Of a DNA stretch of 64,000 bases, positions 4,951-64,000 are shown in pieces (the first letter of the stretch is position 1; each line of letters begins with the position of its first letter). Source of the stretch: Saitoella complicata NRRL Y-17804 (taxonomy: Eukaryota; Ascomycota; Saitoellomycetes; Saitoellales; Saitoellaceae); contig NW_017566994.1 in the NCBI RefSeq assembly GCF_001661265.1, forward strand, positions 124,001 through 188,000, in the 5' to 3' direction. A program made the translations under genes and the position numbers. A model generated the notes under the pieces. It had not been told where the DNA came from, ran no database searches, and saw only the letters and a list, made by a program, of their open reading frames with translations.

Positions 4951-4981
4951 GCTATGAGATATCTTTATTGGATTAGCTTCA

Positions 4982-7955: not shown

Positions 7956-8146
7956 ATTATGGAGGTAGATAAAGGAAACAGAAGAGTTGGTTCGTGTAGA
8001 ATGTTGACGTTTGGGTGCGCTGCGTATCTCCTAGGCTGCAACCACCTACTTGATGCGCGGGCACAGGTCTTATCGATATCGATTGCAGAGTTTTTCGATA
8101 CACGCAAGAACTCACAGAGAATCCATTTTGCTTGATCTGAACGAGG

Positions 8147-9730: not shown

Positions 9731-9764
9731 AGTGTGAGACGAAATGTTTATCCATTTTTCGGGC

Positions 9765-10898: not shown

Positions 10899-11195
10899 TT
10901 CAATTTGTCTTTTTGGTGTTTTGTTCAATTGCGGTGTGTCAGCGACGCCGGCCAAAGCGTGGGGAACAGATGCGCCAATCTTCAGCAGGCACTGCCGTAC
11001 ACCACCGAGTTCTTCGTTTTGGACTTCAATCCTTCAGCCGATATTTATGGATTGTCTTTTAGAATCTCCTATTACTTGTTATATTCCCAATGGACCCTCT
11101 CTCATCGTCTCGTTGTTGGAGCTAGCGCGTATTGGAACTTTTACTGCAAGGCAACTTAGAACGTCGAGTACGAAGAAAGATCCATTGCACCAGAG
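10899..11195. promoter_or_regulatory. Shared divergent promoter, aminotransferase and eIF3b
   Basis: About 297 bp separate the two start codons, so both promoters must lie here. I see a T-rich stretch near 10905-10925 but no convincing TATA box or defined operator. Confidence 0.4.
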
Positions 11196-13400
11196 ATGGC
11201 TTCAGAGATGTCCAACGGCACCCAGGATCGATACGACGACGAGGAGATTGACTTCTCCGACCTCGAGGAGAAGTTCCAGGTCCCCTTCGAGGAGGGCTTC
11301 GACACCCTTGTCCTCGTTGATGGCGCACCCGTCGTCCCCGATGAGAAGCGCGAGGTTTTGCTGAAGGTTATGAAGAAGCTTTTCTCCTCGGCCGGTAAGG
11401 TCAAGGACGATGGCATTTTCATGCCTATGGAGGAGAACTCTAAGGGCAAGCTCATGTCCAAGGGATTCATGTTTGTCGAGTACGAGACCCCAGAGCAGGC
11501 CGATGCCGCTGTCAAGGCGTTGAACGGAAGGCGCATGGACAAACAGCACACTTTGTCCGCCAACCGTTTCACCGACGTCGAGAAGTACGCCAACGTCAGC
11601 GAGGAGTACGTCGAGCCCGAGGAGGAGCCATTCGTCGAGCAGGAGCACCTTCGTTCCTGGTTGGCCGACGCCCAGGCGCGCGATCAGTGGGTTATGTACC
11701 GTGGTGACGAGGTTTCCGTCAACTGGAACCGCAAGGGAGAGCAACCAGATGTCGATGTTCAGCGTATGAACTGGACCGAGACCTACGTGCAGTGGTCGCC
11801 GCAGGGTACTTACCTCACGTCTTTCCACAGACAAGGTATTCAATTGTGGGGTGGACCGTCATGGAAGCGTATGATGCGTTTCGCTCACCCCGGTGTCAAC
11901 CTTATCGACTTCTCCCCCAACGAGCAATACCTCGTCACCTGGTCCAACGAGCCCATCACCCTCCTCCCCATCGGTCACCCCGGTCGTGCCGCCATGCCCT
12001 TCGGCCCTGAGGACGAGGGTAAGCAGGTCATTGTCTGGGATCTCAAGACTGGTGCTCTCCTCCGTTCCTTCGCCGCCCCCGCCCAAGAGAGCGACGCTGG
12101 ACCCAAGAAGATCACCTGGCCCATGTTCAAGTGGTCTTCCAGTGAGAAGTACTTTGCTCGTTTGAGCCCTGGTCAAATCTCTATCTATGAGGCCCCCGGA
12201 ATGGGTCTTTTGGACAAGAAGTCCGTCAAGGTCGATGGTATCGTCGACTTCGACTGGGCGCCTGCCATGTCCGAAGCTAACCAGAAGAACGACGAGGAGT
12301 ACCTCGGTTACTGGACTCCGGAAGTCGGTAACCAGCCCGCTCGTGTCGCGCTCATGTCCGTTCCTTCCAAGCAGACCATCCGTACCAAGAACTTGTTCAA
12401 CGTTTCCGACTGTAAGATTCACTGGCAGTCTAACGGTGACTACATGTGTGTGAAGGTCGACCGCCACACCAAGACTAAGAAGTCTACATTCTCCAACCTC
12501 GAGATCTTCCGTGTCAAGGAGAAGAACATCCCCGTCGAGGAAGTTGAGGTTAAGGACACCATCCTTAACTTCGCCTGGGAGCCCAAGGGCAGCCGTTTCG
12601 CCATCATCTCCACCTCCGACCCTAACCTTGTTAACCTCGGTCAGCCCGGTACTCCCCCTCTTCGCACCACCCTTTCTTTCTACGCCTTCGAGAAGACTAA
12701 GGCTAAGGAGCAGTTCCGTTGCGTCAAGACTGCTGACAAGAAGACCTTGAACGCTATCTTCTGGTCGCCTAAGGGTCGCTTCTTGATCGCTGCTACCATG
12801 GGTCAGTCCTCTACCTTCGACCTTGAGTTCTGGGACATGGACTTCGAGGGTGAGAACACCAACAAGGAGGAGGGATCTACTTCCAACCCTACCGTCATCG
12901 GCAACATCGAGCACTACGGTGTCACTGACATTGAGTGGGACCCTACTGGTCGGTACGTTACCACCTCCGCCTCCGCATGGCGCCACACCATTGAGAACGG
13001 CTACAAGCTCTGGGACTTCAAGGGTACCCTCCTCCGTGAGGAGCCTTTGGACCGCTTCAAGCAGCTCTTGTGGCGTCCTCGCCCTGCTACCCTCCTCTCC
13101 AAGGAGCAGCAGAAGAAGATCCGCAAGAACCTCCGTGAGTACTCTCGCATCTTCGACGAGGAGGACTTGCAGGAGCAGACGCTTGCCAACAAGGAGCTCG
13201 TTGCCCAGCGTCGCCGTCTCGTCGAGGAATGGACTGCATGGCGCGAGAAGGTTGTGGAGCAGCTCCACAGGGAGAGGACTGAGCGTGGGTTGCCCGAGGA
13301 CGATATCGTTGAGGGTAAGGAGGATGGTACTGGTGACCAGGTCGTTGAGGTAGAGATTGAGGAGGTCGTTGAGGAGACCGTTGAGGTTTTGGATTCGTAA
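11196..13400 (+). CDS. PRT1: Translation initiation factor eIF3 subunit b
   Basis: Single exon, 734 residues. An acidic start (DEEIDFSDLEEKFQVPFEEG) precedes an RRM (about residues 40-125, with GFMFVEYETPEQADAAVKAL). A nine-bladed WD-like propeller follows, then an eIF2A-type beta-propeller half, then a charged helical C-terminus containing RKNLREYSRIFDEEDLQEQT that binds other eIF3 subunits. It is the scaffold of eIF3 on the 40S ribosome. Codon use is strongly biased towards C-ending and highly used codons, typical of a highly expressed gene, and this produces long antisense open frames. The start ATG is the first in frame, and MASEMSNGTQDRYDDEE is typical of fungal Prt1. Confidence 0.96.
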   Translation: MASEMSNGTQDRYDDEEIDFSDLEEKFQVPFEEGFDTLVLVDGAPVVPDEKREVLLKVMKKLFSSAGKVKDDGIFMPMEENSKGKLMSKGFMFVEYETPEQADAAVKALNGRRMDKQHTLSANRFTDVEKYANVSEEYVEPEEEPFVEQEHLRSWLADAQARDQWVMYRGDEVSVNWNRKGEQPDVDVQRMNWTETYVQWSPQGTYLTSFHRQGIQLWGGPSWKRMMRFAHPGVNLIDFSPNEQYLVTWSNEPITLLPIGHPGRAAMPFGPEDEGKQVIVWDLKTGALLRSFAAPAQESDAGPKKITWPMFKWSSSEKYFARLSPGQISIYEAPGMGLLDKKSVKVDGIVDFDWAPAMSEANQKNDEEYLGYWTPEVGNQPARVALMSVPSKQTIRTKNLFNVSDCKIHWQSNGDYMCVKVDRHTKTKKSTFSNLEIFRVKEKNIPVEEVEVKDTILNFAWEPKGSRFAIISTSDPNLVNLGQPGTPPLRTTLSFYAFEKTKAKEQFRCVKTADKKTLNAIFWSPKGRFLIAATMGQSSTFDLEFWDMDFEGENTNKEEGSTSNPTVIGNIEHYGVTDIEWDPTGRYVTTSASAWRHTIENGYKLWDFKGTLLREEPLDRFKQLLWRPRPATLLSKEQQKKIRKNLREYSRIFDEEDLQEQTLANKELVAQRRRLVEEWTAWREKVVEQLHRERTERGLPEDDIVEGKEDGTGDQVVEVEIEEVVEETVEVLDS

Positions 13401-13712
13401 ATCTAGCATCTTGTATGAGATAGATGGGGAGCGTGGCATCTGTGATGCATGAGCAAAATCATATACCTTTTCCATCACCTTTCATGAGCCCCCGCAAAAG
13501 TTATCTACGCTTGATCCAATGTACGGCGCCTCACAGCTACAGGTTTCTCAGGGTCCAACCGTTCGTTCACATGCGCGAAGATGCATGCATGATGTTGAGC
13601 GTCACCTCAATTTCGGCCCATTGTAAACAAAACCTTATCCAGCCGTAACAGGAGCCCGTCGCCCAGCCAGGACATCCAGTGAACGACACGATCAGCGAAA
13701 GGACAGTGCATC
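13401..13712. other. Intergenic, eIF3b to RCY1
   Basis: Contains the 3' end of eIF3b and the promoter and leader of the F-box/Sec10 gene. No further gene or repeat seen. Confidence 0.5.
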
Positions 13713-16313
13713 ATGGCGAGCAAGTGGGAGGTCGTCGCGTTGCAGGGCACTAGCTCCAACATGACCCTACGACCCACAGTACTGCCAGCCGAGATCCTGA
13801 GCGGCATCGTCGATTACCTTCCTGTTCCGGATCTGGCAGCTGTTGCTCAAGTGAACAAGCAACTGCGGGAAATGGTCTATGATGATACTCGGTGGGGGGC
13901 CAGACTGCGACAAATGGAGGTTTGGGATGAGAAGGAAGCAAAGCGGAAAACCTTGGATGCGCTGGAGCAGACGGAGATCGCTAGGAAACGAATTGAGGCA
14001 GAAAGACAGCTGGGAAGGAAGACAGGCAGTGTTACCTTATTTGATGCGACGATTGCCGTGACAGACGACAAAGAACGTGAACTCGATGTTGCAGGTCCTG
14101 CTGCACCAAAGCCAACAATGATCGACCCGTCTTCCTACCTTAGGGTATTTGAGGGCGTTAGATCTGTGCGAGGCTATGCCCGAGTGGAGTTTGCTAGGAT
14201 CTACGAAGCGTTGGCACCTTTGTACAATGACCTCGCGAACGCGAGTGATCATACCGAGCCTCTGGTGTTTCGCATGTTTCGGACACCAGAAGAACAGGCT
14301 ATGATGATAAACATTCTTCAGAAATTCGGAAGGTCGAGATCTGTCCGTGATTGGAGTAAGAAGGAGACAAAGATCGCAGCTATGATCGACTTGTTCGAGA
14401 GTGCAGCACTTCAAGAATTCGAGGGAGGTTATGACGCTCGGGATGTCGACGGACGAATGCAACGATACGCAAACGTGTTAACAGAGCTGAACGGAGGCGC
14501 ATCTTGTGTGCAGTTGTTCATTCAGAAGAATCCACTAATGTACGAGATACCTGAGACCCCAGCAGACTGCTTTATGGGGGAATTACTCAACCTGGAACCA
14601 ATGTCATTGTTTATCACGCGGCTCATCAACGAGCTCAACGTCCAATCAGACGTCGTGAACAGAACATTCCCAGAGTCTCTTAATGTCATGCTTACGTTTG
14701 CTGAGCGGGTAATCCAAGATGTGGTCGCTGACTATACTGCAAGGTTGATTGAAGAAGCGCACCAGAAGGATACAGAAACATTCTTGAAGGCTGTGTGTGG
14801 CAGTTTCCAACAGTGTTTACGGATTCCTGCATCTCTTACGGAAACCAAGGGCTCAAAAGGCACGCTGAAGGAGGATACTGAAAAAGCAATCAAGACAATG
14901 TTTGAAGTGCACGTTGATTTGTATCTCGTCGAGGAGTTGAACTTTGTACGGAGCAAATGCGAAGCTGAAGTGGAATCGTGGGAGAGGAAGGTGGCGGAGG
15001 ATGCAGAAGCACATGAGTCTATGCTACTGAGTGGTGTCAGCAGAGCAGAAGACAAGAAGAACTTCTTGACGTCTTTCAAGAAGGTTCTCCTGATGCCTGT
15101 GTCAGTGATTCCGTTTCCGAGTACAACAGCCAAGGTAACGCCTACGACTACTGCTCGACCGTCTGATGAGTTGTCGCCAGCAGCCCAGACGGCTCAGGCT
15201 AGTGCTGCTATTTCGCGGACGGGCACACCAACCCCAGCAACATTGCCTACGACAGAGCTTGCTGCCCAATCTGCTATTCTAAGTGCTCGTTTGGAAGGTA
15301 TCCGTGGACTCTTCAGTTTGGAAGTAGCATTGCAGCTCCTTCATCTCTGTAAATCAAGTCTCGAACGAGCCGAGCCCTTCCTGAGCATGGGTGGTCAATT
15401 GTCAGAAGAAGTGAGGGAACAGTGTGAGGCAATCTTTGTCACCCTTATTCAACACCTTGGCAAGAGACACATTAAGAACGGATTTGACCAGGCTGTTGAG
15501 CATTTGTCTCGATACCAGCCTAGTCAAGGATCTGACGTCGGGACGTCCGTCGAACCTCTAGTTATCTTCTTGGAACTGGTTCACGTCGGTGATCTTATCC
15601 AACAGATGGTGGATGTCTTCTTCGAGCAGGAGATGGCCCGCTTGGTGGATCGCAATGACTTCCTGAATCCGGCCGTAAAGGAGAAGAAGAGGTTCGAGCA
15701 GCTTATCGATGAACGTGTGGCAGCTGGGTTGAACAAGGGTATCGACGTCTTGATGAATCAAGTGGAATATATCCTGCATGAGCGTCAGTCGCGGAGAGAC
15801 TACAACCCCTTGCCAGCCTCCGTGACGGGCGAACGAGACCCGGGTCTTGGACCAACACGTGCGGCTACAGAAGCAGTTGAGTGTCTCACAACCCATACCA
15901 AGCTGCTGGTCGGTTCAACAGATAAAAGCGTGCTTGATGTGTTCTTCCAAGAGGTCGGTGTCCGCTTGTTCGGTTCGCTTTGCAAGCATTTGAAGAAGCA
16001 AACCGTAAATGTCGAAGGAGGCATTAAGCTAATCAGCGACCTAAACCATTACCATGCATTTGCAACATCACTACGACAAAAGGTGATCATGCCCTATTTT
16101 ACAGCACTGAAGGAGTTGGGACACGTCTTCATCATCGGGATTTCGGATGCGAAAGCCATAGGCGCGCTTTGTTCCGATGTGGCAAGGTATGGAGGCGTAT
16201 TCCGTGCCGAGGAAGTTTATGAGTTTGTCCAGTGTCGGGCGGACTGGCTGAAGGTGAAGCGTGATGTGGACAAGATCTTGTTTGGAGCGATGAATGATTG
16301 CTGCGTGCAGTGA
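13713..16313 (+). CDS. RCY1: F-box and Sec10-like endocytic recycling protein (recyclin)
   Basis: Single exon of 866 residues. Near residues 23-60 lies an F-box (LPAEILSGIVDYLPVPDLAA...VNKQLREMVYDDTRW). The rest is a long helical tether-like region of the exocyst Sec10 type, with a low-complexity Thr/Ala/Pro linker near residues 480-515 between the two halves. Yeast Rcy1 and fission yeast Pof6 have this architecture. They act with Skp1 in endosome-to-Golgi or plasma-membrane recycling and septum separation, apparently outside a classical SCF ligase. The length matches the family. It is convergent with the NF-X1 gene, with about 200 bp between stops. Confidence 0.9.
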   Translation: MASKWEVVALQGTSSNMTLRPTVLPAEILSGIVDYLPVPDLAAVAQVNKQLREMVYDDTRWGARLRQMEVWDEKEAKRKTLDALEQTEIARKRIEAERQLGRKTGSVTLFDATIAVTDDKERELDVAGPAAPKPTMIDPSSYLRVFEGVRSVRGYARVEFARIYEALAPLYNDLANASDHTEPLVFRMFRTPEEQAMMINILQKFGRSRSVRDWSKKETKIAAMIDLFESAALQEFEGGYDARDVDGRMQRYANVLTELNGGASCVQLFIQKNPLMYEIPETPADCFMGELLNLEPMSLFITRLINELNVQSDVVNRTFPESLNVMLTFAERVIQDVVADYTARLIEEAHQKDTETFLKAVCGSFQQCLRIPASLTETKGSKGTLKEDTEKAIKTMFEVHVDLYLVEELNFVRSKCEAEVESWERKVAEDAEAHESMLLSGVSRAEDKKNFLTSFKKVLLMPVSVIPFPSTTAKVTPTTTARPSDELSPAAQTAQASAAISRTGTPTPATLPTTELAAQSAILSARLEGIRGLFSLEVALQLLHLCKSSLERAEPFLSMGGQLSEEVREQCEAIFVTLIQHLGKRHIKNGFDQAVEHLSRYQPSQGSDVGTSVEPLVIFLELVHVGDLIQQMVDVFFEQEMARLVDRNDFLNPAVKEKKRFEQLIDERVAAGLNKGIDVLMNQVEYILHERQSRRDYNPLPASVTGERDPGLGPTRAATEAVECLTTHTKLLVGSTDKSVLDVFFQEVGVRLFGSLCKHLKKQTVNVEGGIKLISDLNHYHAFATSLRQKVIMPYFTALKELGHVFIIGISDAKAIGALCSDVARYGGVFRAEEVYEFVQCRADWLKVKRDVDKILFGAMNDCCVQ

Positions 16314-43179: not shown

Positions 43180-43881
43180 TCATTTTCTTTTCCCGGATCC
43201 AGCTTTCCCGGACCCAGCTTTCCCGGATCCAGCCTTGCGTTCGTCTACCCGCTTCTTACGGTCCATTGCTTGCCTTACTCGTCCGGCTCTTCTGACTTCC
43301 TTTGATTCGTACTTGAACTTTGGCTTCTTCTTCTTGTCTGGCCACTTCTTCTTGGCAGCATCCTTCTCCTTGGTGTCGTCGGCAGTGATGGACTTCTTTG
43401 GTGGTGGTGGTCGGTCATCCTCGGATTCTTCTCCGAATTCTTCGGTAACGGTGACCGTAGTCACTTTTTCGCCGTCGTCATAAACATCCTCTTCCCAAAG
43501 ACTTGTAGGCTTCTTGGGAGCGGCATTTCCCGCTTCATGGCCTGGTCCGTCCTGAATTCCCTTCCATTCCTCCTCCTCATCCTCATCGCCCGACGCCTCC
43601 AAATCCAGCGCAATCTTATTCTGCTCAATAGCATCCTCCAACTCCGCTTTCCGCTCCTGACGTATCCTCGCACGAGCCTCAAGCCTATCCTTCCGGTTCT
43701 GCTCCTCAATCTCGACCTGTGCTTGCTTTTGACGCTGCTTCTTGCGCTTGGAGAATCCTGTCAGGTATTCTTTTCTTGCCTCCCTGTCGAAGAGAACTTC
43801 TTGGACGCGTTCCCGCTTCTTGGAACGTTTCTTGGCGTATGCGGCATCTCCTGCTGTGAGTTTGGTGATGTTATCGACCAT
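43180..43881 (-). CDS. RRP17: Ribosome biogenesis exonuclease RRP17 (Nop25/NOL12 family)
   Basis: Single exon, 233 residues from the ATG encoding MVDNITKLTAGDAAY; the frame continues upstream without an ATG. The family core is LFDREARKEYLTGFSKRKKQ followed by a long charged helix (QNRKDRLEARARIRQERKAE), an acidic linker and a Lys-rich tail. Yeast Rrp17 is a 5'-3' exonuclease that trims 5.8S and 25S rRNA ends in the nucleolus. The C-terminus carries three tandem copies of a five-residue AGSGK unit ending KRK, encoded by a 15-bp DNA repeat. It is divergent from ALG1 (about 128 bp). Confidence 0.88.
   Translation of the reverse strand: MVDNITKLTAGDAAYAKKRSKKRERVQEVLFDREARKEYLTGFSKRKKQRQKQAQVEIEEQNRKDRLEARARIRQERKAELEDAIEQNKIALDLEASGDEDEEEEWKGIQDGPGHEAGNAAPKKPTSLWEEDVYDDGEKVTTVTVTEEFGEESEDDRPPPPKKSITADDTKEKDAAKKKWPDKKKKPKFKYESKEVRRAGRVRQAMDRKKRVDERKAGSGKAGSGKAGSGKRK
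43188..43238. repeat. 15-bp tandem repeat within RRP17 3' end
   Basis: Three near-perfect copies of TTTCCCGGATCCAGC (plus-strand view; the middle copy differs by one base) encode the AGSGK repeats at the protein C-terminus. Copy number is likely to vary between strains. Confidence 0.7.
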
Positions 43882-49925: not shown

Positions 49926-50867
49926 TTTGCGGGTGTTGATGGACGGATCAACCCTCTTGAGCTTGGTGGTGAGTCCTTCAAGGGTCCAACTCTAGCAAGA
50001 CGCGGGAAACGGCTGGGGGTTCGCGTGCCTGGCGGGCTCTTGGCTGCCGCAGTCGACCGCATGAACCGAGGACTTGGTAAAACTGGATTGGAAGGTCAGT
50101 CTCGCCTCAATCGCAACTCGCTGTTTTCAACAATCTATGCAACTTGAACTCACGACACACACAATAACTGTGCTGCGAAAATCCGGTCCCACGGCTGCAA
50201 AATACAGTGGCGGTGCACGTGGCGGTGCGCATCACGTGCACCCGCCTATATCTTTTCCCGCAGCTCGACGAACTGTTGAACCTCACATACCAAACGCATT
50301 ATAAATACCATCATCATAAAAGCACTATTGAGATGACGGAGCCTGCTCTACGGAGCGTCGGTTCTGTCGAGGAGTCACATAGCCGTAGTATGATGGAAGA
50401 AACGATATTCTAACGGTATGGGTGCGGCGTCTCGGCCCTTTCCCCTTGGTCGGGGAGTGTCTTCGGACGGGGCATCGTTCGTCGCCTTCGTGTGACGGGC
50501 ATGCGAGAGGTTGCAATGCTGTTAGATACATCTCTTTCCTTTTTCTTTGTGTGATTAGTTTAGAATGATATCTTGTTGCCTGTCCTTCACGTTCACCGCC
50601 AGAAAGCTCCGCAAAACCTTGATTCACAAGCTGCCGCTGCCGTGGCCGGGTAGATACGACAGATCCTACCCAAAGTACCGAACATTCCCTTGAACCATGC
50701 GTAAATGACTACCGGACTTATCACGTTTCTGATCCCTCTCCTCCAAACGATTTCAATCAAGATGTGGCACCCTTGCGCTACTGTGACGCAGTTTATCCGC
50801 ACAGAAATTTAGGTTTGGGCCTTCGATCGATACGCGTATTACAGTAGCCAACCAACATCTCGAAAAC
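49926..50867. promoter_or_regulatory. Divergent promoter region, IRE1 and ADE16/17
   Basis: 942 bp. It contains a CACGTG E box (50233-50238) and a TATAAATA at 50300-50307. A 26-codon open frame (50332-50412) starts 24 bp downstream of that TATA. This could be a leader peptide or chance. No larger gene supported. Confidence 0.4.
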
Positions 50868-53190
50868 ATGTCGGAACAAAAGACTGCCATCCTCTCCGTC
50901 TACGACAAGACTGGCTTGTTGGATCTTGCTAAGGGCTTGATCAACAATGGTGTTCGTCTTTTGGGCTCTGGCGGTACGGCCAAGATGATCCGTGAGGCCG
51001 GTATGACTATTGAGTATGTGCTATTTGATCCTCGCATTTCTCCTCGATGAGGAGGTCGCGCAACGGACAAGAATTGTTTACTGATGCGTTTCGGACTATA
51101 GGGATGTCTCCGCCATCACCCACGCTCCCGAGATGCTCGGTGGTCGTGTCAAGACCCTCCACCCTGCTGTCCACGGTGGTATCCTCGCCCGTGACATCGC
51201 ATCCGACCGCGCCGACTTGGCTGCAAATCAGATCGAGAAGGTTGACTATGTTGTCTGCAACTTGTACCCCTTCGTCGAGACCATCTCCAAGATCAATGTC
51301 ACTATTGCCGAGGCTGTTGAGGAGGTCGACATCGGTAAGTTATGAATTTTTTACTGGAAGTGTTGCACCGTTATGAGCTACGAACATGTGCGGCTATGAG
51401 CCTGCTGTGGTTTCTACCCGATGTGAGGTCATCGCTCAAGACCCTTAACTTCTACGGAGGTTCCCATCGTTAAGTCAAGACTCCCTCGCGCGACGATCTT
51501 GTTGCGGTCGCAGATCTTCTTCCGAGGTGAAGCGATGTCCAATCGAGGCGAGCCTGTTACAACATTGGGAGATTGAGATCGGGCCCGCTTTAGAGTTCGC
51601 TCCGTCTTGGAGCGTCTCGCTAGGGCCTGGGAGTTGCTTCTCTTTGAGTTGAAGGTTGGGTGCGAGCACATGTTGCTCGTACTCGTCCCGATTTTCTTAG
51701 TGATGAAGCACACATACTTTTACATATCGGCTCGTGACGGTGCAATGTCTTCAACAGTTCGCTCATGGCGAGGACTGAATTTCTGACGTAGTGAAATAGG
51801 TGGTGTTACTCTTCTCCGTGCTGCCGCCAAGAACCACGCTCGTGTGACCATCCTTTCCGACCCTGCGGACTACCCTCGTTTCCTCGAGGAGCTCTCCCAG
51901 AACGGTACTATCCCCGCTGAGTCCCGTAACCGTTACGCCGTCAAGGCCTTCACCCAGACTGCCGACTACGACGAAGCCATCTCTGACTACTTCCGCAAGC
52001 AGTACACCGCTGGTGAGAAGCAGCTTACTCTCCGTTACGGTGCCAACCCCCACCAGAAGCCCGCTCAGGCTTTCGTTAAGGAGGGCGAGCTCCCCTTCAA
52101 GGTCCTTGCCGGATCCCCCGGATACATCAACTTGTTGGATGCCCTCAACTCCTGGCCCTTGGTCAAAGAGTTGAAGCAAGCTTTGGGCCTCCCCGCCGCT
52201 GCTTCCTTTAAGCACGTCTCCCCCGCTGGTGCCGCCGTCGGTATCCCTCTCTCCGACGTTGAGAAGAAGGTTTACTTCGTTGAGGACATCGAGCTTACTC
52301 CCCTTGCTTCCGCCTACGCTCGTGCTCGCGGTGCTGACCGCATGTCTTCTTTCGGTGACTGGATTGCTTTGTCCGACGTTGTCGATGTTCCTACCGCCAA
52401 GATTATCTCCCGCGAGGTTTCCGACGGTGTTATCGCTCCTGGATACGAGCCCGCTGCTTTGGAGATCTTGAAGAAGAAGAAGGGTGGCAAGTACACCGTC
52501 CTCCAGATGGACCCCGAGTACAACCCTTCTTCCCTCGAGACCCGTCAGGTCTACGGTATCTCCCTGCAGCAGCGCCGCAATGACTACCAGGTCGAGTCTT
52601 CCACCTTCCAGACCTTGGTTTCCGCCAAGAAGGAGTTGCCTCAGGAGGCTATTACTGACCTCATTGTCGCTACCATTGCGTTGAAGTACACTCAGTCCAA
52701 CTCCGTCTGCTACACTAAAAATGGCATGGTTGTCGGTTTGGGTGCTGGTCAGCAGTCCCGTATTCACTGCACTCGTCTCGCCGGTGACAAGACCGACAAC
52801 TGGTGGCTCCGTCACCACCCCAAGGTCCTCAACCTTCAGTTCGCCCCTGGAACCAAGCGTGCGGAGAAGTCTAACGCCATCGACCTCTACGTTCTCGACA
52901 AGGTGCCCGAGTCTGGATCTGAGCGTGAGGCTTGGGAGTCGGCGTTCGCCACCAAGCCTGAGCCTATCACTGCTGAGGAGCGTAAGGCTTTCTTGCAGGA
53001 GTTGGATGGTGTCACCTGTGCTTCTGATGCTTTCTTCCCCTTCCCCGACAACGTGCACAGATTGTCGCAGTCTGGTGTCAAGTACGTTGCTGCACCAAGT
53101 GGATCTGTGATGGACAAGGTCGTTTTCGACACTGCTAATGGATACGGTATGACCTACGCGGATCTTCCGATTCGCTTGTTCCACCACTAA
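50868..53190 (+). CDS. ADE17: Bifunctional AICAR transformylase/IMP cyclohydrolase
   Basis: Three exons (50868-51013, 51102-51334, 51800-53190) give about 589 residues. The N-terminal MGS-like cyclohydrolase domain begins [17 protein letters not shown] and includes [34 protein letters not shown] and VVCNLYPF. The C-terminal AICAR formyltransferase domain has [25 protein letters not shown] and [20 protein letters not shown] and ends [14 protein letters not shown]...IRLFHH. It catalyses the last two steps of de novo purine synthesis in the cytosol. Codon use is strongly biased, as in eIF3b, indicating high expression. The second intron (51335-51799) is 465 bp, the longest in the window. Yeast has two paralogues, ADE16 and ADE17; the symbol is nominal. 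Confidence 0.96.
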
Positions 53191-54717
53191 GGTGGAGAAT
53201 ACGGCTGGGGTTGCAGAATGGGCGTTTTTCATGAGATTATTCTGGTAATGTTGGATGATGTAGGTTATTGTTCAGTATAGAACTCGAGTTGGCGATCGAA
53301 ATTTAAATATTTTACAAACACCTGATCCGCACAAAGCTTATCCCAACCAAGTAGAGCTCAGGGTGCGGATATCACCGGGTCTTCGGTGTGCTCCCACGCG
53401 TCCTCATTCAGCTGCGCAATGCGGCTGCCCGCAAATAGTGTGCATGGGCACAGCCGCCGCCAGATCGGGCTATCAACGTTACACTACACCATCTCATCCA
53501 CACAACACCGTCCTCCACGATGATCTCTCACCTATACCAGCGATGTCTACTTCCACCTTATTGGCTCTGGAAAGCCGTTCCTGCCAGCTGTTAACGGCTC
53601 CACGCTGTCGTTGTACCGTTCGAATTTACACATTCGCCTGAGCTTCACTCCGCAGTGCACATGTATCGTGCTGCCCTATTGCTTTGGCTACACCACGTGC
53701 AAAGATGGTATACGACTACCATGGCGTATCACAAATTTGCCTTGCTCAATGAAGTCTTTCTCAGGTCTTTTGAACGTGTACATCATGGCTTGCTCGATTA
53801 TTACCCGATTGGGTTGGCAATAAGTAAAGCCGGACTCGCGGTGACACAAAGAAGGTCTCATCAAGGCAAAGGAACAGGATTGGAATTAAGAGAGCCGTGG
53901 TTTAAGACACGTTATCCATTATCCCCCGCTCTCTCGGGATACGGCAGCAGGTTCCCTTTCCATCGGCTCAGGGACCGTGTCTTCTTATTGGAGGATGTTA
54001 TACCCAACTGGGTCTTGAAAGGCAGCGATAAAGGCGATTGATATCATAAATAGCTTTTCAGCGGTATTGTGTTGTCTTTGTTCAGCAGCCATACTGCGTT
54101 TATCCGCCCTCTATGTCAGCGTGAACGAACTCCACGTGCACATGGGTCTCCCAACATGGCAAGTTGGACGTGATTGTGCACTTTACGTGCCTAAGTTGAG
54201 GTCTTAGGAGTTGGTGCCATAGGAAGCCCAATGATGGCTTTTGACAATGTCTGCGATCGTCGAGTCGGTGGAATGCACCCGAACCCGTGGAATCGGGCTG
54301 CCTCGTGCTCACCCGTTGGAGACGGGGAACAAGGAAGTTAATCGCGTGCACTCTTTGTCTGGGACCATATCCAAGATTGCCTGTGGGCCTTTTGTTGCGC
54401 TTGCGGAAAGGAAGACACGGGTGATGGTGGGGTCTTTGTCTCGACGCCGTTGCAAGCAGCCGTTGGCGGTGCACACCATAGTCGACAAAGGATGCCAAAG
54501 GAGCTTGCATGTTCTTCCGAGCTGCTTCTCTCCATTCCGGTCGTGAAGGAAGGAAGGACAATTCTATAAAGACCGGCCTGATCCCTCGTCCTTCCAATCC
54601 TCACCACACTCGGTCTTGCAATCTCTCACAAACACTTCAAGCTCTACGGCCTGGTTGCCTGGTTGCCTAGTTCCCGCATCTCTTTCTAACAACTATCAAC
54701 TACATCAACAACTCACA
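53191..54717. other. 1.5-kb region upstream of the pheromone gene
   Basis: No supported gene. A plus-strand frame of 128 codons (53655-54041) and a minus-strand frame of 165 codons (54100-54597) are not family-like and lack clear introns. A TATA box (TATAAA at 54565-54570) lies 147 bp upstream of the pheromone ATG. A short tandem of TGGTTGCC-like units sits near 54653-54669 in its leader. The remainder is probably regulatory DNA of the cell-type-specific pheromone gene. Confidence 0.4.
54565..54570 (+). promoter_or_regulatory. TATA box of the alpha-pheromone gene
   Basis: TATAAA in the context TTCTATAAAGACC, at a spacing that suits a leader of roughly 100 bp before the start codon at 54718. 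Confidence 0.5.
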
Positions 54718-55382
54718 ATGAAGTTCTCTGTTGCCTTCATCGCCGCGGCTGCGCCTTTCCTCCTTTCCGCTGCTACCGCGGCTCCTACCTCCACCACGGA
54801 CGTCGCTGGCGATGTTCCTGTTGTCGAGGTCGAGACTGTTGATGTCGAGAAGCGTGATGCCAAGGTTTGTTTTCCTTCCATTCTCTGGTCTTGACTCGCA
54901 TACTAACCAGTTCCCTACAGTGGCAGCCTTACTACGGTGAACCCATCATGAAGCGCGAGGCTGAGGCTGATGCCGATGCTAGGTGGCAGCCTTACTACGG
55001 CGAGCCCATCATGAAGAGGGACGCCGATGCTAGGTGGCAGCCTTACTACGGTGAACCCATCATGAAGCGTGACGCCAAGTGGCAGCCTTACTACGGTGAG
55101 CCTATCATGAAGCGTGACGCTGAGGCCGACGCTGAGGCCGACGCCGATGCCAGGTGGCAGCCTTACTATGGCGAACCCATCATGAAGCGTGATGCTGACG
55201 CCGAGGCCAAGTGGCAGCCTTATTACGGTGAGCCGATCATGAAGCGTGACGCCAGGTGGCAGCCTTATTACGGCGAACCCATCATGAAGCGTGATGCTGA
55301 CGCCGACGCCGACGCCGATGCTAGGTGGCAGCCTTACTACGGTGAACCCATCATGAAGCGCGAGGCCGAGGCTTCCGCTTAA
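54718..55382 (+). CDS. Alpha-class mating pheromone precursor, eight repeats
   Basis: Two exons, 54718-54864 and 54921-55382, separated by a 56-bp intron (GTTTGT, TACTAAC, CTACAG), give 202 residues. A signal peptide (MKFSVAFIAAAAPFLLSAATA) and an acidic pro-region ending VEKRDAK are followed by eight perfect copies of WQPYYGEPIM. Each copy is followed by KR, the Kex2 site, and a run of EA or DA dipeptides suited to Ste13-type trimming. Every run except the last ends in R or K immediately before the next W. So the mature peptide may be the 10-mer or an 11-mer with N-terminal Arg (5 copies) or Lys (3 copies). The intron ends exactly before the first repeat. This is the precursor layout of alpha-factor genes. 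The GEP(I) end recalls GYGEPNW of Yarrowia, and no cysteines are present, unlike most Pezizomycotina pheromones. Confidence 0.93.
54921..55353 (+). repeat. Eight tandem pheromone-encoding units
   Basis: Units begin at 54921, 54984, 55035, 55080, 55155, 55212, 55257 and 55326. The 33-bp core (pheromone plus Lys) differs only at synonymous sites, while the spacers vary in length from 12 to 42 bp through gain and loss of GAC/GAG-GCC dipeptide codons. Confidence 0.9.
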
Positions 55383-56048
55383 ATGGTCACTCACCAGCGG
55401 AGCTGAGCGGAAGGATTGGGATGGAGAATCTGTAATATTGGGATGATGCAGGTGCTTGAATATCTTCGATAGCTGCAGTGCGGAGACCTAGGTGGACGAG
55501 CGTACCGGTTGACGGGTACATCAGGTTCTTTTTTTCTTCTCTTTCGTTCAACACATGATGTTTTGTTTGCGAGAGATACCCGCTCAGATTGAATCTGATT
55601 CCTTTCTAAGCAAAACCGTACGTCTAAGTTCACAGCCCGTTTGCATCTCTGTGTACTTAGCTTTTCATTAATTGCAAGTTGTTCTTCGCTGTAATTCAGT
55701 CTGACGCACAGTAAACGGCACAACATCTACAGAAGCGTGGGAACTCAGAAATCGAAACCCTTACATATGATTCCATGCTACGCAGCTCCAGCACGAGTAA
55801 GCGATGGTTATCTTAGCAGGCCTGGTAACATGATTGTCTAACTATCTCGCTTATGGAGACCATATCGTACAGAGTGCTTCATCCGTAATTCCCCCGAAAA
55901 TAAAACGCCATAACTCCCGAATACTCGTACATCTACATACCCAAAATTCATAACCGTAACTTCCAAAGACCCAAACGACCATGCCAAACAAAGAACAAGA
56001 ACTCCAAAACAACTATCAGACCAATAGGACCAATATCAGAACCAACGG
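55383..56048. other. Region downstream of the pheromone gene
   Basis: 666 bp. Contains the pheromone 3' UTR, presumably A/T-rich in part. A 111-codon minus-strand frame (55391-55726) is not family-like. Nothing supported. Confidence 0.4.
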
Positions 56049-56384
56049 TCAAGCTGATGTCCCGTTCACCAAGGGGTAAGTAACAGATGTATGCTTCCAC
56101 GCACGCTTCAACATGTCGTATTCATCATACGCAACCATGAAATTCTCCACCAGGTCGAAGGGGAGTTCAGGCATTTGAAGCTCCTGCGAGATGGGGATAA
56201 GAGGACTCGTCTCCACATCTGATTGCGCTGGGACAGATGTGATCTTGGCCGCTTTGGAAACTACGACATCCCTCTTCTTGCTCGCGAGTCTCATCCGCCT
56301 CAAGGCACCCTTCGAAAGTCTCCTAATCGGGACGCCCTCATCGCTCGCAAGCCTCTTCCACTTCTTCGTACTTTTGTATGGTTG
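56049..56384 (-). CDS. Possible 3' exon of a small gene, unknown
   Basis: A 112-codon frame opens directly after a plausible acceptor (GCTAATAAGTAG, with its branch-like GCTAAT) and contains a basic region (STKKWKRLASDEGVPIRRLS). An acidic/hydrophobic tail follows (PELPFDLVENFMVAYDEYDM). I could not find a convincing first exon with an ATG. An upstream candidate region lies at 56500-56600, joined by a GTACGC donor. No family recognised. It may be a small gene missing its annotated start, or chance. Confidence 0.3.
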   Translation of the reverse strand, partial: QPYKSTKKWKRLASDEGVPIRRLSKGALRRMRLASKKRDVVVSKAAKITSVPAQSDVETSPLIPISQELQMPELPFDLVENFMVAYDEYDMLKRAWKHTSVTYPLVNGTSA

Positions 56385-57424
56385 CTACTTATTAGCCAGG
56401 ACGAAACCTGACATATACACCCCCCACGTGACGGCTCGGGTAACGGGCATTTCTGGGAGAACTCCCCTTGTGATGAATAGGTCCCACGATATGCGTACCG
56501 CCGGTCCTTGGCTCCCACCCCATATCTCAGCAGCGCGCCACACCCCTGTGCTTATACGCGGAGCTTCGTGAAATGACTGCGGGCTGACGTTTCTTGGCAC
56601 CCCTCACCGGGGCACGGATTCATCCTATTGGCGCTTGGCAGTCACGGCAGACACCCCTACAGTTCCTGCGCGTGGCACACCCTTCGATATTGGAACGTTC
56701 ACGGCGTGTTGAGCGTGCCAGCGTTACTAGCGCAGTTTCATCAATTAGCCTACTGCAGCTGGATAAGCAAGGAGCGCGAGCAATAACTTTCCTTCCAAAT
56801 CGAACTTCCATGTCCAAAACTTCGATTCAGCCAGCCCGTGAATGTCCAGGGCATCGGATGCTGGTAGTTGTGTGCATCGTCAAGCTGACGGGTGCCGTCA
56901 GAGCTTCAGCTTGCCCTTTGTGCGTGTCAGACTCCTACCCATATGCCTGGATAAGCTTTTACCGATATACCTAGTATTGACCAGGGTTGGTTCACTGAAA
57001 CACATAGAACTCATATGACTGAGCCGGACCGGCGTCACTCCACATTGCAAGCCCCGCTTTCCTTGAGCCGAGAACCCGCGGGAATCGACATCCGCGCTTT
57101 ACGTACATCATGATCGGTACCACTACGCATTTACCCATCCAACAGAACGTTCTGGGAACTATCACACGTCGTGAACTCGGGACGGTCCGGTGTGATATTG
57201 TTGTTGCGTGATTGAGTGCTGCCCTGCTATGGTGGCTTGGATGATGGAAGGGCCCCGTGCGTGACCGTGCCAGTGCCAATATGCGGTCCGACCCCAGGCC
57301 CAGTTGCTCTCATACCGCATGGTTTCCAATTATGTCACAGACAAAAAATGTGCATCGAGGCGCAGTACAATGTTTCTTAAAAAGAAGGCCTAGGTCAGCT
57401 GGTTTTTTGCCACCGGTTGCGCTC
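56385..57424. other. 1-kb region upstream of polysaccharide deacetylase
   Basis: No supported gene. Frames of 60-126 codons are not family-like. It contains a CACGTG site near 56424. It presumably holds the deacetylase promoter. Confidence 0.35.
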
Positions 57425-58249: not shown

Positions 58250-58878
58250 TCGAATGGTACTGCGGAGGCAGGCGGCTGATGGAAGGCAGAAGAGCAAGGT
58301 GGAGCAGAAACTCTCTAGGACATTCTCAGAGCACAAAGAACAGCTGAATGACTATTTAAGATACCGATTAGAACTTTAGTGTCGAACCGTGAGAAAATGA
58401 ACGATTCGTGTTCTGAATTGCTGTCGTGCTATCAACAAAAGCAACTACGTTTCCGAGAATTCGTCTCCAAGTATTGGTTCTATGGATGTGCTTGCTGTAG
58501 TAAAGAGACAGGCAGCAGGAGACAGTTTGGCGAACATGCCAAGTCTTCTGTACCGCGATGATTCTTGATGAGATCGACACCAAACCACATGGCCCAGCTA
58601 ACGGCAGGAGCAGCACCATATTAAAATAGATGTTAGAACGAATGCCTTGATTGGCCTTACACTTGATATCCAACCTCCTCAGCAGGATTCCCTTCTCCGT
58701 TCGTCACCCCTCGTCATCGGCTGACGATTCTGATTGGGTCGCGCTAATGCAGCTGCTGAAAATTGCAACCCCTGGGCAACCTCACCTCAAGGAAGCGACA
58801 CGTAAGCAAAGACGGACAGAGGATCCGCGCTTCAAATCACCCTTTTTCTCGTCGAATTTTGCCTTTTTGAGCAATGAG
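58250..58878. other. Intergenic, deacetylase to EAF1
   Basis: 629 bp with the deacetylase terminator and the EAF1 promoter. Frames of up to 101 codons are not family-like. Nothing else seen. Confidence 0.4.
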
Positions 58879-61800
58879 ATGAATGTTGTACGTTTTTTCC
58901 CCGGTTCTTTACGCTCATTTTCGGCGGTACGCTGACCGTGCGCGTGTTTGCATAGCCATCCGTCTCTGCTTTACGCGAGAAGGCTTTAGGAGAGCGGGAC
59001 GCGTCGAAAAGGTTCGTCATTCATCTATTCATCCATTTTTGTGTGTGAAGGTTCTGACGGAGTTGTTGTGTAGGGAGGTTATCGGCAAGCGCAAGCGTGC
59101 ACTCACAGAACTATGTTTTCTCCATAAACATCCGGATATTCCGCCAGACATCACATCTACGGCTCTCGCGGATTCCGCCGACTTTAAGACTTTCCTTGAG
59201 GCCAATGACTTGGAAGCGTAAGTCGTCGCACCTCCACCATGCTCTGCATACATCCATGCTGACACGTGTACATAGTGGAAAGACCTTCGACGAGAGCACC
59301 CTTCCCCGCGTGCGCGACCTCGCAGTAGATGTCGACACGCATACAGAGCTTCTTGCGGTTACTACAGTCGCTGCCGTTCCTTCCATACCTGTAGCGGAGT
59401 CTCCTGCTGTCATGTCCCCCGGTGTTGACGGACCCGCAAGTCCTGGCACCGCCGAGTTCGCAAGACCAGGTCGCATGACGACGCGCCGCTCATCGCACGC
59501 TATTCGGCACAAGTCTGTCACGGATCTTGTTGCGGGAGAAATTCCTGGACGATCGCCTGATCTCGGTACTCCGCGTCGGAGTCGGGGTAGCTCGCCGTTG
59601 GCACAATTAGTGCAGACGCCGACACCTGTTCGCGACTCGCCTGTCCCTCAATCAACATTGAGAAGAGTCAATCCTCCATCGAGATTATCACAAGCTACGC
59701 CTAAGGAGAAGCGTTCGCGGCCAAAGTTCTCAGAGGTTCCGCAGTTACGTCAGCATGAGCCTGGCCGGGAGCCTGTTTACTGGGAACAGAAGGCTCCATG
59801 GCTTGTCGAGGCTTCGCAAGCGCCCTTGTATCGTGTCATGCAATCGGCGCACAAAACTGTCAACACCTCGGATTGGAAGACGGCCTTGAATGAGACGAAG
59901 ACGCTTCATTCCCTTGAGCGCATCGACACTCTGAAGAACCAGCACAAGTGGTCATTCAGACAGCCGCAACGCCAACGTGTCGCCCTGCGACGCAAAGCTC
60001 ATTGGGATCACCTCATCGCTGAAGCACAATGGCTGGCAACGGATTTTCGACAAGAACGAAAATGGAAGATCGCCATCGCTAAGCAAGTTGTGGAGTGGGT
60101 AATGGCATGGCACGAGGCCGGCGAAGACAAAGGCATTGTATGCATCACAAGAAAGCCAATCATCCATCTTACCGAAGCGAAGGTGGAGGAGGAGAGTGAG
60201 ACGGAAGACGTAGTCATGGTTGATGACCATAAGGAGGATAGGTTTGTCAACATTGACGGAGATGATGATTCATCAGTGCCCGATGTTGAGAGCATTGCCT
60301 CTATTGTTCCACCACCTGTTGCGCCAAGCTCTTATAAAATTTCGGATGGATTGCCGTCGCCGGCGTATTCAATCAGAGACGACGAAGACAGGCTGTGGGA
60401 TCTGCTACCGGAAGAGTGCTTGGCATTTGTCGTCAACCCACATGCCGCGTTGCTTGATCTGGAAATGTACGCCCCTCCGACTCCATACGACGATACCACC
60501 TACCTCGATCCGCTCGAACAGTTGCCAATTGTGCCTATCAGCAAGTACGTTTTGCAGAGGGCTAAATTTGCACCCGCACTTGGCGCGAAGAGACTTAAGC
60601 TTGAGGGCGTTGAGGATAAGGACGGCGATGGTGAAAGAGAGCAAGGTCCGATTGATTTCGCTCTGGCTGGCAAGCATTCCGAGGCCGTGCGGCGAGATAA
60701 GCCGCATCAGATCAGGCCGCCGTTGCCACCTCTTCATGCAACCGAGTACCGTATTCCACCAAGCTGGAGTTCGGACGACGATGCGTTGTTGTTGAGCTTG
60801 TTGCGTGACTACTCCTATAACTTCGAGCTTGTTGCTACCTTGTTGCAACCTAGTACGATGATCTCTGCGCCAAGCGAGAGGAGGACGAGCTGGGAGTGCT
60901 TCGAGCGTTGGGTCCAAATCGACCCCATCGCTGCAAATGTTGCTTTCACTGGTGCTCATGCCAAGTTGGTTCAGCAACGCCTTGACCATGCCCTTAATCG
61001 TGCGAGGATGGACTCGCCTGGTATGAAGACTAGCAAGAAACTAGCCGATGTCGCTGCACGTAATCCTGCTATCAGCATGTTGATACAGCCAAGACGTCGT
61101 CCAAGACATATCGGCATGTTCGAAGCGATGAAGAAGATTGCGAAAAAGCGGGAGCTGGCTGCGAAGCCTGCACAGAGCAAGAAGGTCATGCCAGAGCCGC
61201 ATCAGAACAAGGTCGTTGCACCGAGTCCGACACCCATGGATTTGGCGAAGCTCAAGGCGGACAGAGATCGGGCCATTGCTGCTGCTTTTATCGAGCAAAG
61301 GAATGCCGCTGCGCAGTTTGCGTTGCAAAATCAGGGACGCCCCATTCGACCGGCTCAGCAGCTTACGCCTCAGCAGATCGCTGTTTACCAGGCTCAGCAA
61401 GCCGCTGCAGCGCAGGCTGCTGCCGCTCGAGGTGCCGCTGGACAAGCAGCGGTTGCTGCGGCTCAAGCTCGTCCTGGTGTTCCCTTACAGCAGCAACAGC
61501 AGTATGCCAGACAAGCCGCTGCCGCCGCCGCTGCTGCGGGTCAACAGATGCCTCAGGGTGGCAAGGTGGGAGCCCAGGTGCCTGCACGTCAAGGAGCAAT
61601 CGGAGTTCCGAACGGCGCGCCTGGTGCATTGCCGACTGGTGCGAACGGCAGACCGCTTACGTACCAGGAGCAGATGCATGCAATGGTTATGGCACGTTAC
61701 CCGAACTTGCCTCAACAGAGAGCAGCGGTTCAGCAGCAGCTTCAGTCCAATGGACAGGCTGTGCCGTCCCCGGTTCCGCAGCAAGCAGTGCCTCAACCGC

Positions 61801-62150
61801 AAGTGCAGCCTCCGCCTCAGCAACAACAGCCTCCAGCGCAACCAGCCGGCTCACCGCCAAACCAGGCTGCTATGTTGGCTGCCTTGCAAGAAGTTCAGGC
61901 TCGCGCGGCTCAGGTTGCCGCTGGTACTCCGGTTCCGCAGATCCCTGCCGATGCTTCGAGCCCCATGGCGACGGTGCAAGCAACTATTGCCGCACTTGCA
62001 GCTCAAATCCAGCAGCAATATCCGACGATTCCTCCGGATCAGGTGACGAAGATGGCTCAAGCTCAGTTGGCGAGATATTTGCAGAGGAATGTGGGACAAC
62101 AGCAGCAGGCAGCTCAGGCTCAACAGGCTGCGCAAGCTCAAGCTGCACAG

Positions 62151-62188
<38 letters not shown>

Positions 62189-62330
62189 AGCTCAGGCTGG
62201 AGTTCAACAAGTTTCGCAACCAGTGCCGCAGCAAGTGGTTCAACCTGTTCCTCAACCTGTCGTGCAGCCTCAGGTCAATGGTACCCCGACTCCGCAGCCA
62301 ATGGTGAACGGTGCCGCACCAACGCAATGA
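58879..62330 (+). CDS. EAF1: NuA4 complex scaffold EAF1/VID21 (HSA and SANT domains)
   Basis: Four exons: 58879-58887 (only MNV), 58956-59011, 59074-59217 and 59276-62330; about 1,087 residues. Residues near 15-40 read REVIGKRKRALTELCFLHK, the family N-terminus. An HSA domain near residues 300-380 contains WLATDFRQERKWKIAIAK and binds actin and Arp4. A SANT/Myb domain near 560-620 contains WSSDDDALLLSLLRDYSYNF. The C-terminal third is Gln/Ala-rich, ending in QA repeats. Eaf1/Vid21 is the platform subunit of the NuA4 histone H4 acetyltransferase. The tiny first exon is a prediction from the donor GTACGT and phase; other start choices would also need exon 2. Confidence 0.9.
62150..62198 (+). 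repeat. Hexanucleotide CAGGCT repeat in EAF1
   Basis: About eight tandem CAGGCT-type units encode a Gln-Ala run near the protein C-terminus. Probably length-polymorphic. Confidence 0.7.
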
Positions 62331-62877
62331 GCAGCACAATGAAGACGTGTATTGATATAACAAGATGTTTGATTTCTTTTTCTTTTGGAGGAGCACAGAA
62401 TTCGAAGATGCATCAGATGGGTTTACTCTTTTCTTTTTCTTTGGGTTTAGGGTCTGGCTGGCGCTTTTTCTAGGTTTGCATGTGAGCGTGAATGTTGGCT
62501 CGTGAAGGGGAGATGAGATGGGAGTAAGATATGATAGGTCTAGGGTAGAACAGCTGATTGAAAGCGCTGTATGAAGGAACAGGGATACCCGAGACGGGCT
62601 ATAAGTGATTCATATTGTTCATGTCATGATGCCACCGAGCCTCGTGCCCCAGTACCTCGACCGTTCACAGGATGCGATTCTTTCCATTGAAACACCGTGG
62701 ATGACTTTCGTACATCTCCATGTATCCCGTAAACAGCCGTCTTATCGATTTGCCCCTCGTTGTCCGTTGCGCGCGCCGACCATTGCATGCATCGATTTCC
62801 TTGCCTTGAGATGTAGATGTTTGACGTCATCCCAAAAACGCTCCCAACAAGCTTCATCCAGAGATCATCCTCAAGTC
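62331..62877. other. Intergenic, EAF1 to IES1
   Basis: 547 bp between two plus-strand genes. Starts with a T-rich 3' UTR-like stretch (TTTCTTTTTCTTTTGG near 62372). No gene supported. Confidence 0.45.
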
Positions 62878-64000
62878 ATGACCAAAATAAACCTGACCAT
62901 ACCCTCGGTCGAACCACCAACTCCAGCAGTTCCATCGCCAGCTCCTTCGAACGGTACTTCTTATTTCGATATGGATGTCCCAGACGACGCGTCGACCGCT
63001 GGGATGTTGACGCCGGGAGGCTCAAGGCCGGCTGTTGAGAAGTGAGTTCCGAATCAGTGGCGATTGTAATGATGACCGCTGATCTATGGCTCACAGGTCG
63101 ATATTTGCGGGATCGAAGATTGTTCATATCAAACGTCCTGATGGTGTTATGTTGTCGAGGAAGGATATTCAGTTCGATAGTGCGTCTGATCCAGTTTGAA
63201 ACTGTTCATTCTGAATGGGCTAATACGATGTCCAGTGCTCAACACTATCTTCACTGATACCAGGGCTGTATTCACGAGTGCTTATGAAGCTGATCCGCCT
63301 TTGCCTCCGGGGCAGGAGAGGCCGAAACTCACTTTCGCTGACCTGTACGTAGAGCACTGAAAAGCTCCGGACTACTGTGCTAACGGTTTCACAGATACAT
63401 TGAAGCCATGGCGAAGAGTAGTAAGTGTTCTAAGCTGCTACGCGAGAAGTTTGCGAATGAGAGAACGTCGGCTGTGGCTATCGCCCAGATCTCATTGCTG
63501 GTGAACGTGGGCAGGATAAACACCACCCTTACCTGTGCGTCACTTGATTTACGGCCTGTTTGAACTCGCTAACACATTCATGCCAGTCTTTCCGGAGATG
63601 CGTGCCCAGCTCCGTACATACCACCCAGTACCTGTCCTCCAGGCCCAAGCCTCGGCTCAGAACGCAAAACAACTCCAAGATGCGCCCCGCCTCAAGTATA
63701 TTCTCAAAGGGGCCGCCGAAGACCGTGCCGGCGAACCCCAAACATGGGATGCTCTCCTCGAACGCATGGTGCAGACCGCCCAACGCCCAACCACGAACCC
63801 CATCAACCTGATCTTCCTGTTCGCAACCTATGCGCCGAAACTCACCGAACAACACTTCGCCCCGCCACGTGAGTTTTATGACTTGTTCACGCGGACTGGG
63901 CTGAGTAGCTTGAGTCGTGCGAATGCGTTTTTGTGGTTGTGTTGGCATTACTTAGAAACGTCTGGTGCTGCAGCGGATACGGCGAGTAATCCGTTCGGGG
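62878..64000 (+). CDS. IES1: INO80 complex subunit IES1, 5' part
   Basis: Truncated by the window edge. Five exons are visible: 62878-63041, 63097-63179, 63236-63344, 63395-63534 and 63587 to the end, about 303 residues. A Pro/Ser-rich N-terminus precedes IVHIKRPDGVMLSRKDIQFD, LTFADLYIEAMAKSSKCSK, LLREKFANERTSAVA, LLVNVGRINTTL, FFPEMRAQLRTYHPVPVLQA and RANAFLWLCWHYLETSG, the order of fungal Ies1. The fourth exon contains a GTAAGT that is not used, since the conserved family sequence reads through it. Ies1 is a fungal-specific INO80 chromatin remodelling subunit. It follows the NuA4 gene EAF1 in the same direction. Confidence 0.9.

Follow-up and report, generated by a model that had tools for sequence, protein, structure and literature searches.

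In ascomycetes, alpha pheromones govern mate choice, and yeast engineering makes use of them as orthogonal signal-receptor pairs. Their precursors have a described architecture of KR sites, XA dipeptides and repeats (PMC10569646; PMC6339444) with repeats of 9-15 residues (PMC13037118), and the mature peptide is obtained through Kex2 cleavage behind KR, loss of the basic C-terminal residues to Kex1 and removal of the XA pairs by Ste13 (PMC6339444). In Leotiomycetes the mature repeat is by convention taken to begin with the residue after XA, and mature repeats with an initial R are listed there, such as RCGHPGQPCG and RCGARGQGCW (PMC10569646). Xylona RFCHLPGQGCSK, listed as a conserved motif, likewise begins with a basic residue (PMC6339444).

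The described peptides which come closest to the one presented here are of several kinds. In Fusarium oxysporum, receptor-dependent responses are reported to depend crucially on the G6-Q7 turn of WCTWRGQPCW, and the peptide with Cys2 and Cys9 oxidised is reported to be inactive both as chemoattractant and as quorum signal (PMC7289986). The Trichoderma reesei peptide is printed as WCYRIGEPCW, which is ten letters, and is called a peptide of 11 aa in the same paper (PMC3068285). An alpha pheromone with PYG[L/M]P[I/V]G at its C-terminus is given for the three Pleosporales species of Martin et al. 2011 as well as for ten others, and one with two cysteines for 13 other Dothideomycetes (PMC6339444); the Fig. 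6 legend and the text of that article number these two subgroups in opposite order. Yeast alpha-factor is bent at a Pro-Gly turn, its C-terminus binding Ste2 and its N-terminus triggering it (PMC7570734). The alpha-factor of Saccharomyces cerevisiae, WHWLQLKPGQPMY, is without cysteine. That of Yarrowia lipolytica has a YGEP stretch and is a longer, yeast-type peptide.

Here we describe a gene in a stretch of 64,000 nucleotides of DNA, called the window below, which has one spliced frame; the encoded protein starts with a hydrophobic stretch, continues with a pro-region and carries eight fixed peptides flanked by KR and [D/E]A. On the basis of its translation we read the gene as coding for the precursor of an alpha-type mating pheromone (ppg1/ppgA/MFalpha type) in a filamentous ascomycete, a reading which is very likely correct and to which we give a probability of roughly 0.86.

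Gene structure and repeats of the precursor

The start and stop of the gene and its eight exact, cysteine-free copies of WQPYYGEPIM, as the earlier note had them, were confirmed by translation, and the features are collected in the table. An intron is required because the frame that opens with the ATG at 54718, read without splicing, is closed by a stop at 54894. GT-AG joins of 46-250 nt with the acceptor before 55000 and the frame kept open to 55382 were tested, and 55 such joins were found, ten of which retain all eight copies; we take the shortest of these ten, which has a GTTTGT donor, as the predicted intron among the candidate joins. It separates the K from the W of repeat 1 exactly, and for this reason exon 2 starts with the core peptide. 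The N-terminus MKFSVAFIAAAAPFLLSAATAA is hydrophobic by hydropathy and is a putative signal peptide of about residues 1-22, with the cleavage point predicted from translation and hydropathy. Coding on another frame or strand was considered and rejected, the minus-strand ORF at 54915-55394 being a mirror of the repeats.

Table. Positions of the precursor gene and its parts in the window
Feature	Position	Strand	Residues	Basis
TATA-like CTATAAA, 154 nt 5′ of the ATG	54564..54570	+		simple pattern match; presumed role
Pheromone precursor gene (predicted), 2 exons, 202-aa pre-pro-protein	54718-55382	+		translation
Exon 1: hydrophobic N-terminus, acidic pro-region, first KR site, first DA-K spacer; 49 codons	54718..54864	+		translation and hydropathy
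Predicted intron, phase 0, 56 nt: GTTTGT donor, ACTAAC branch-like site, CTACAG acceptor	54865..54920	+		splice-join inspection
Exon 2: eight WQPYYGEPIM repeats, each with KR after it, tail EAEASA, stop; 154 codons including stop	54921..55382	+		translation
Repeat 1, K before (across intron)	54921..54950	+	50-59	
Repeat 2, R before	54984..55013	+	71-80	
Repeat 3, R before	55035..55064	+	88-97	
Repeat 4, K before	55080..55109	+	103-112	
Repeat 5, R before	55155..55184	+	128-137	
Repeat 6, K before	55212..55241	+	147-156	
Repeat 7, R before	55257..55286	+	162-171	
Repeat 8, R before	55326..55355	+	185-194	

The repeats are identical in 8/8 copies, lack cysteine and are each followed by KR, so that near-identical units within 9-15 residues, each with a KEX (KR) site, are present as in alpha-type precursors. 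Chance does not account for such a pattern: when the codons of exon 2 were shuffled 2,000 times, the most frequent amino-acid 6-mer had at most two copies (one copy in 1,987 shuffles and two in 13), and the 6-mers of WQPYYGEPIM occur eight times in the real exon. The window has 532 stretches of 60 codons or more without a stop, and among these the precursor has the highest 8-mer copy number (8); the runners-up are low-complexity runs (5). At the codon level, 11 of the 80 cells of the repeat alignment deviate from the commonest codon, through at least six changes which are all silent. The chance of six silent changes out of six is about 1e-4 under the assumption of random and independent changes, which does not hold for tandem copies, and since such copies exchange sequence the silent-only pattern is an indication of constraint and not a test of it. 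A low-complexity artefact was ruled out by the silent-only changes together with the intact processing sites.

In the 1,017 nt 5′ of the ATG, a pattern search found neither TGAAAC nor its complement, TGAAAC being the core of the Ste12 site given as TGAAACA (PMC12941744); this absence neither supports nor excludes mating control, and we have entered it against the pheromone reading. RNA-family and tRNA scans gave no matches. The scan for bacterial promoters and terminators gave one site of each kind against a shuffle mean of 1.7, which has no bearing here because the gene is fungal.

Predicted processing and mature peptides

The spacers between the KR sites and the repeats are regular. Ahead of repeats 1-8 they hold 1, 4, 2, 1, 6, 3, 1 and 5 dipeptides, all 23 of them DA or EA, and in 8/8 cases the spacer is a whole number of [D/E]A dipeptides plus one basic residue, which is K in copies 1, 4 and 6 (3/8) and R in copies 2, 3, 5, 7 and 8 (5/8). 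XA dipeptides of the Ste13 type are thus found between KR and repeat, and with the KR sites and the repeats they bear out the alpha-type precursor anatomy which had been suggested from the first reading. Ste13 takes off residues in pairs and never singly, and Kex2 cuts poorly at a single K or R that follows Ala. The K or R would stay ahead of W after Ste13-type trimming, which makes the decapeptide boundary doubtful. Because 8/8 copies would keep this residue after XA trimming, and in line with the Leotiomycetes convention, the mature peptides are probably KWQPYYGEPIM (3 copies) and RWQPYYGEPIM (5 copies) as predicted from the translation, and the eight identical decapeptides of the earlier note hold for the repeats (8/8) and less well for the mature products. 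The calculated [M+H]+ values are 1411.67 for the K form, 1439.68 for the R form and 1283.58 for the decapeptide.

It is also conceivable, and in our view rather unlikely, that an extra protease strips the single K or R and that the mature alpha pheromone is the decapeptide WQPYYGEPIM itself. The core is invariant in 8/8 copies and is preceded by either K (3) or R (5), and several known pheromones begin with W, both of which fit such a form. The strict dipeptide preference of Ste13 and the poor Kex2 site speak against it, as does the preceding position, which is basic in 8/8 copies and would be residue 1 by the convention mentioned above (PMC10569646). The choice between 10 and 11 residues can count in practice, for one receptor gave no response to the first candidate peptide and responded to a version with two extra N-terminal residues; near-cognate peptides were also accepted by 14 of the 19 receptors tested (PMC6265332).

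For the preferred 11-mers, the course of events would be as follows. The pre-pro-protein would enter the secretory pathway, Kex2 would cut after KR, Kex1 would remove the C-terminal KR, and a Ste13-type dipeptidyl aminopeptidase would strip the [D/E]A pairs and halt at K/R-W. KWQPYYGEPIM and RWQPYYGEPIM would then be released from the cell and may bind a Ste2-type receptor of the partner or of the same colony. The peptide may turn at G-E-P, with the aromatic N-terminal half on one side and the hydrophobic C-terminus on the other. Around the central Gly, G6-E7-P8 aligns with the G-Q-P or G-E-P of known peptides, and the peptide has neither PG nor GQ. A disulfide is impossible in it because Q and I stand where the cysteines would be, at positions 2 and 9, and by analogy with the Fusarium oxysporum peptide we infer that it could keep the turn and escape redox control.

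Relation to known alpha pheromones

Against Fusarium oxysporum WCTWRGQPCW the repeat core has the same length, and in an ungapped comparison W1, G6 and P8 are identical with E7 in place of Q7; the differences are the change of Cys2 and Cys9 to Gln and Ile and the extra N-terminal K or R predicted here (PMC7289986). Trichoderma reesei WCYRIGEPCW agrees at W1, G6, E7 and P8, and differs from WQPYYGEPIM by its cysteine pair and C-terminal Trp (PMC3068285). Its GEP shows that this motif, which the earlier note found reminiscent of Yarrowia-type peptides, is peculiar neither to Yarrowia nor to yeasts. The window peptide falls outside the cysteine-pair group (WCXXGXXCW type, two cysteines around the central Gly), since none of its 8 repeats has a Cys and positions 2 and 9 are taken by Q and I. 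The Pleosporales group has a cysteine-free core from the same kind of precursor, with YGxP[I/V] common to it and the window peptide, and the latter has Y for P before YG, E for L/M and M for the final G (PMC6339444), so that YYGEPIM agrees with the strict PYG[L/M]P[I/V]G at 4/7 positions. S. cerevisiae WHWLQLKPGQPMY resembles the window peptide in the lack of cysteine and the initial W and, by eye, in a G-[Q/E]-P followed by two hydrophobic or aromatic residues; it is unlike in length and interior.

These likenesses were compared with permutations of the decapeptide. In ungapped comparison with F. oxysporum, 204 of 200,000 permutations score as high and 4,064 match the number of identities (3); with T. 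reesei the numbers are 969 and 1,795 (4 identities; 915 and 1,731 in an earlier run), and both scores are reached together by 76 of 200,000, all of this in a comparison picked after the T. reesei sequence was seen. Local alignments of the decapeptide and of the R-headed 11-mer were made with nine published peptides or cores and 20,000 permutations. The best one is with the Pleosporales core, YGEPI against YGLPI, for which 918 (decapeptide) and 744 (R-headed 11-mer) permutations are as good, or 1,149 and 779 with an alternative spelling of the core; T. reesei comes second with 1,581 and 2,076, and the remaining peptides range from 2,897 to 14,308. No local-alignment signal came from the peptides of Paracoccidioides, S. 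cerevisiae and Xylona (5,692 to 14,308 of 20,000), and the best yeast alignment falls outside the G-[Q/E]-P register. Peptides as short as these cannot prove shared descent.

Cysteine-free alpha pheromones of filamentous ascomycetes are already known, and the claim of an undescribed class, which had been drawn from the missing cysteines, is too strong, since the Pleosporales PYG[L/M]P[I/V]G peptides (PMC6339444) and the S. cerevisiae alpha-factor precede it. As to the peptide itself, WQPYYGEPIM, YYGEP, YYGEPIM and PYYGEP were not found in a literature search made without subscription papers and supplementary tables; because these lay outside the search, a prior listing is quite possible. We put forward, as a tentative suggestion which is more doubtful than probable, that the peptide is a natural link between both groups of filamentous alpha pheromones, with W1-G6-[Q/E]7-P8 kept, both cysteines lost at their exact positions and YGxP[I/V] shared with Pleosporales, in a lineage for which such a peptide is possibly not yet described. 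If so, since the disulfide form is reported to be inactive in F. oxysporum (PMC7289986), the redox off-switch proposed there would be missing from this mating signal, which the cell would release in a K-headed and an R-headed form of equivalent charge. A cysteine-free peptide which fits the Fusarium-Trichoderma frame would be evidence of how the cysteine pair was lost; with it the proposed control by redox state could be tested in nature's own variant, and it is a candidate partner for Ste2 in a new pair.

Other readings and the neighbouring genes

Some searches gave nothing in favour of a mating role. The MF_alpha families PF04648 and PF05436 are absent from the Pfam matches of the precursor (seven families at E up to 1, none at cut-off), which is weak counter-evidence because the family model is yeast-type, and neither Ste2 nor MAT nor another repeat precursor turned up in the Pfam and motif or pattern searches of the window parts scanned. 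Searches for relatives of the precursor gave three pattern-matching stretches in IMG/VR and 20 in prokaryote genomes, none of them confirmed, and no match in plasmids, as expected for a fungal gene.

A signalling or effector repeat peptide which has the alpha-precursor layout without a mating role, such as a paralogue or a neofunctionalised KEP, is quite improbable here. WQPYYGEPIM is without the two cysteines usual in many filamentous ascomycetes. Canonical alpha-type layouts outside mating have been proposed for Basidiomycota, where repeat precursors without known mating role have Ste13-type signatures, and such signatures are reported in a Glomeromycotina species (PMC6339444); it is the occurrence of these precursors in other phyla that leaves this reading a small share. 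Against it, the W1, G6, Q/E7, P8 frame of known alpha pheromones is retained and YGxP[I/V] is common to the Pleosporales core. Still less probable is a dikaritin/ustiloxin-like RiPP, for which Kex2 would process the repeat precursor and the YY pair would be cross-linked in a modified, cyclic product. The UstYa/DUF3328 signature is a pair of HxxHC motifs, and the 64-kb window has six single HxxHC matches and no pair (starts 60-450 nt apart on one strand). The putative signal peptide, the KR-separated repeats and the tyrosines are all common to that class (PMC6339444; PMC7329392), but no DUF3328 or other tailoring enzyme was matched by Pfam in 29 protein entries (28 different ORFs, the precursor included; E limits from 1 to 1e-6; for one entry the best 25 of 38 families), nor in the six-frame pieces 49990-51788, 53272-54717 and 55383-57247. 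This coverage omits gaps such as 58250-59057 and 62331-64000, and the window holds only about 8.6 kb downstream of the precursor. Ste13 is not predicted to process dikaritin-type precursors (PMC6339444), and DUF3328 neighbours are rare for fungal pheromone genes, 98.6% of 216 being without them with three exceptions (PMC7329392). The RiPP precursor was dropped, the UstYa signature not being seen in the window parts scanned, and the alpha-type pheromone precursor is retained.

The neighbours of this precursor are housekeeping genes. By Pfam, the bifunctional purine enzyme ATIC, with an MGS-like domain followed by AICARFT, and an IRE1-type kinase-RNase lie upstream, and a polysaccharide deacetylase and an HSA-Myb protein lie downstream. 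Between the pheromone and deacetylase genes, an 84-aa ORF on the minus strand (56049-56303) resembles the end of a real protein and has no Pfam match. The HSA and Myb-like protein at 59058-62330 (+), which we take to be Eaf1/Vid21-like, has a long Q/A-rich C-terminal part with tandem CAGGCT repeats. An eIF3b is also encoded in the window; it had no match in IMG/VR, and its best solved-structure match, presumably the Chaetomium entry, reaches 831 bits, as against at most 560 bits for the other eIF3b chains. Together with the set of genes in the window, this match fits a filamentous ascomycete. A Nop25-like protein has C-terminal repeats of the GSGKA type, encoded by three 15-nt tandem units at 43189-43233, and the exocyst Sec10-like protein at 13683-16313 (+) carries an N-terminal F-box-like domain.
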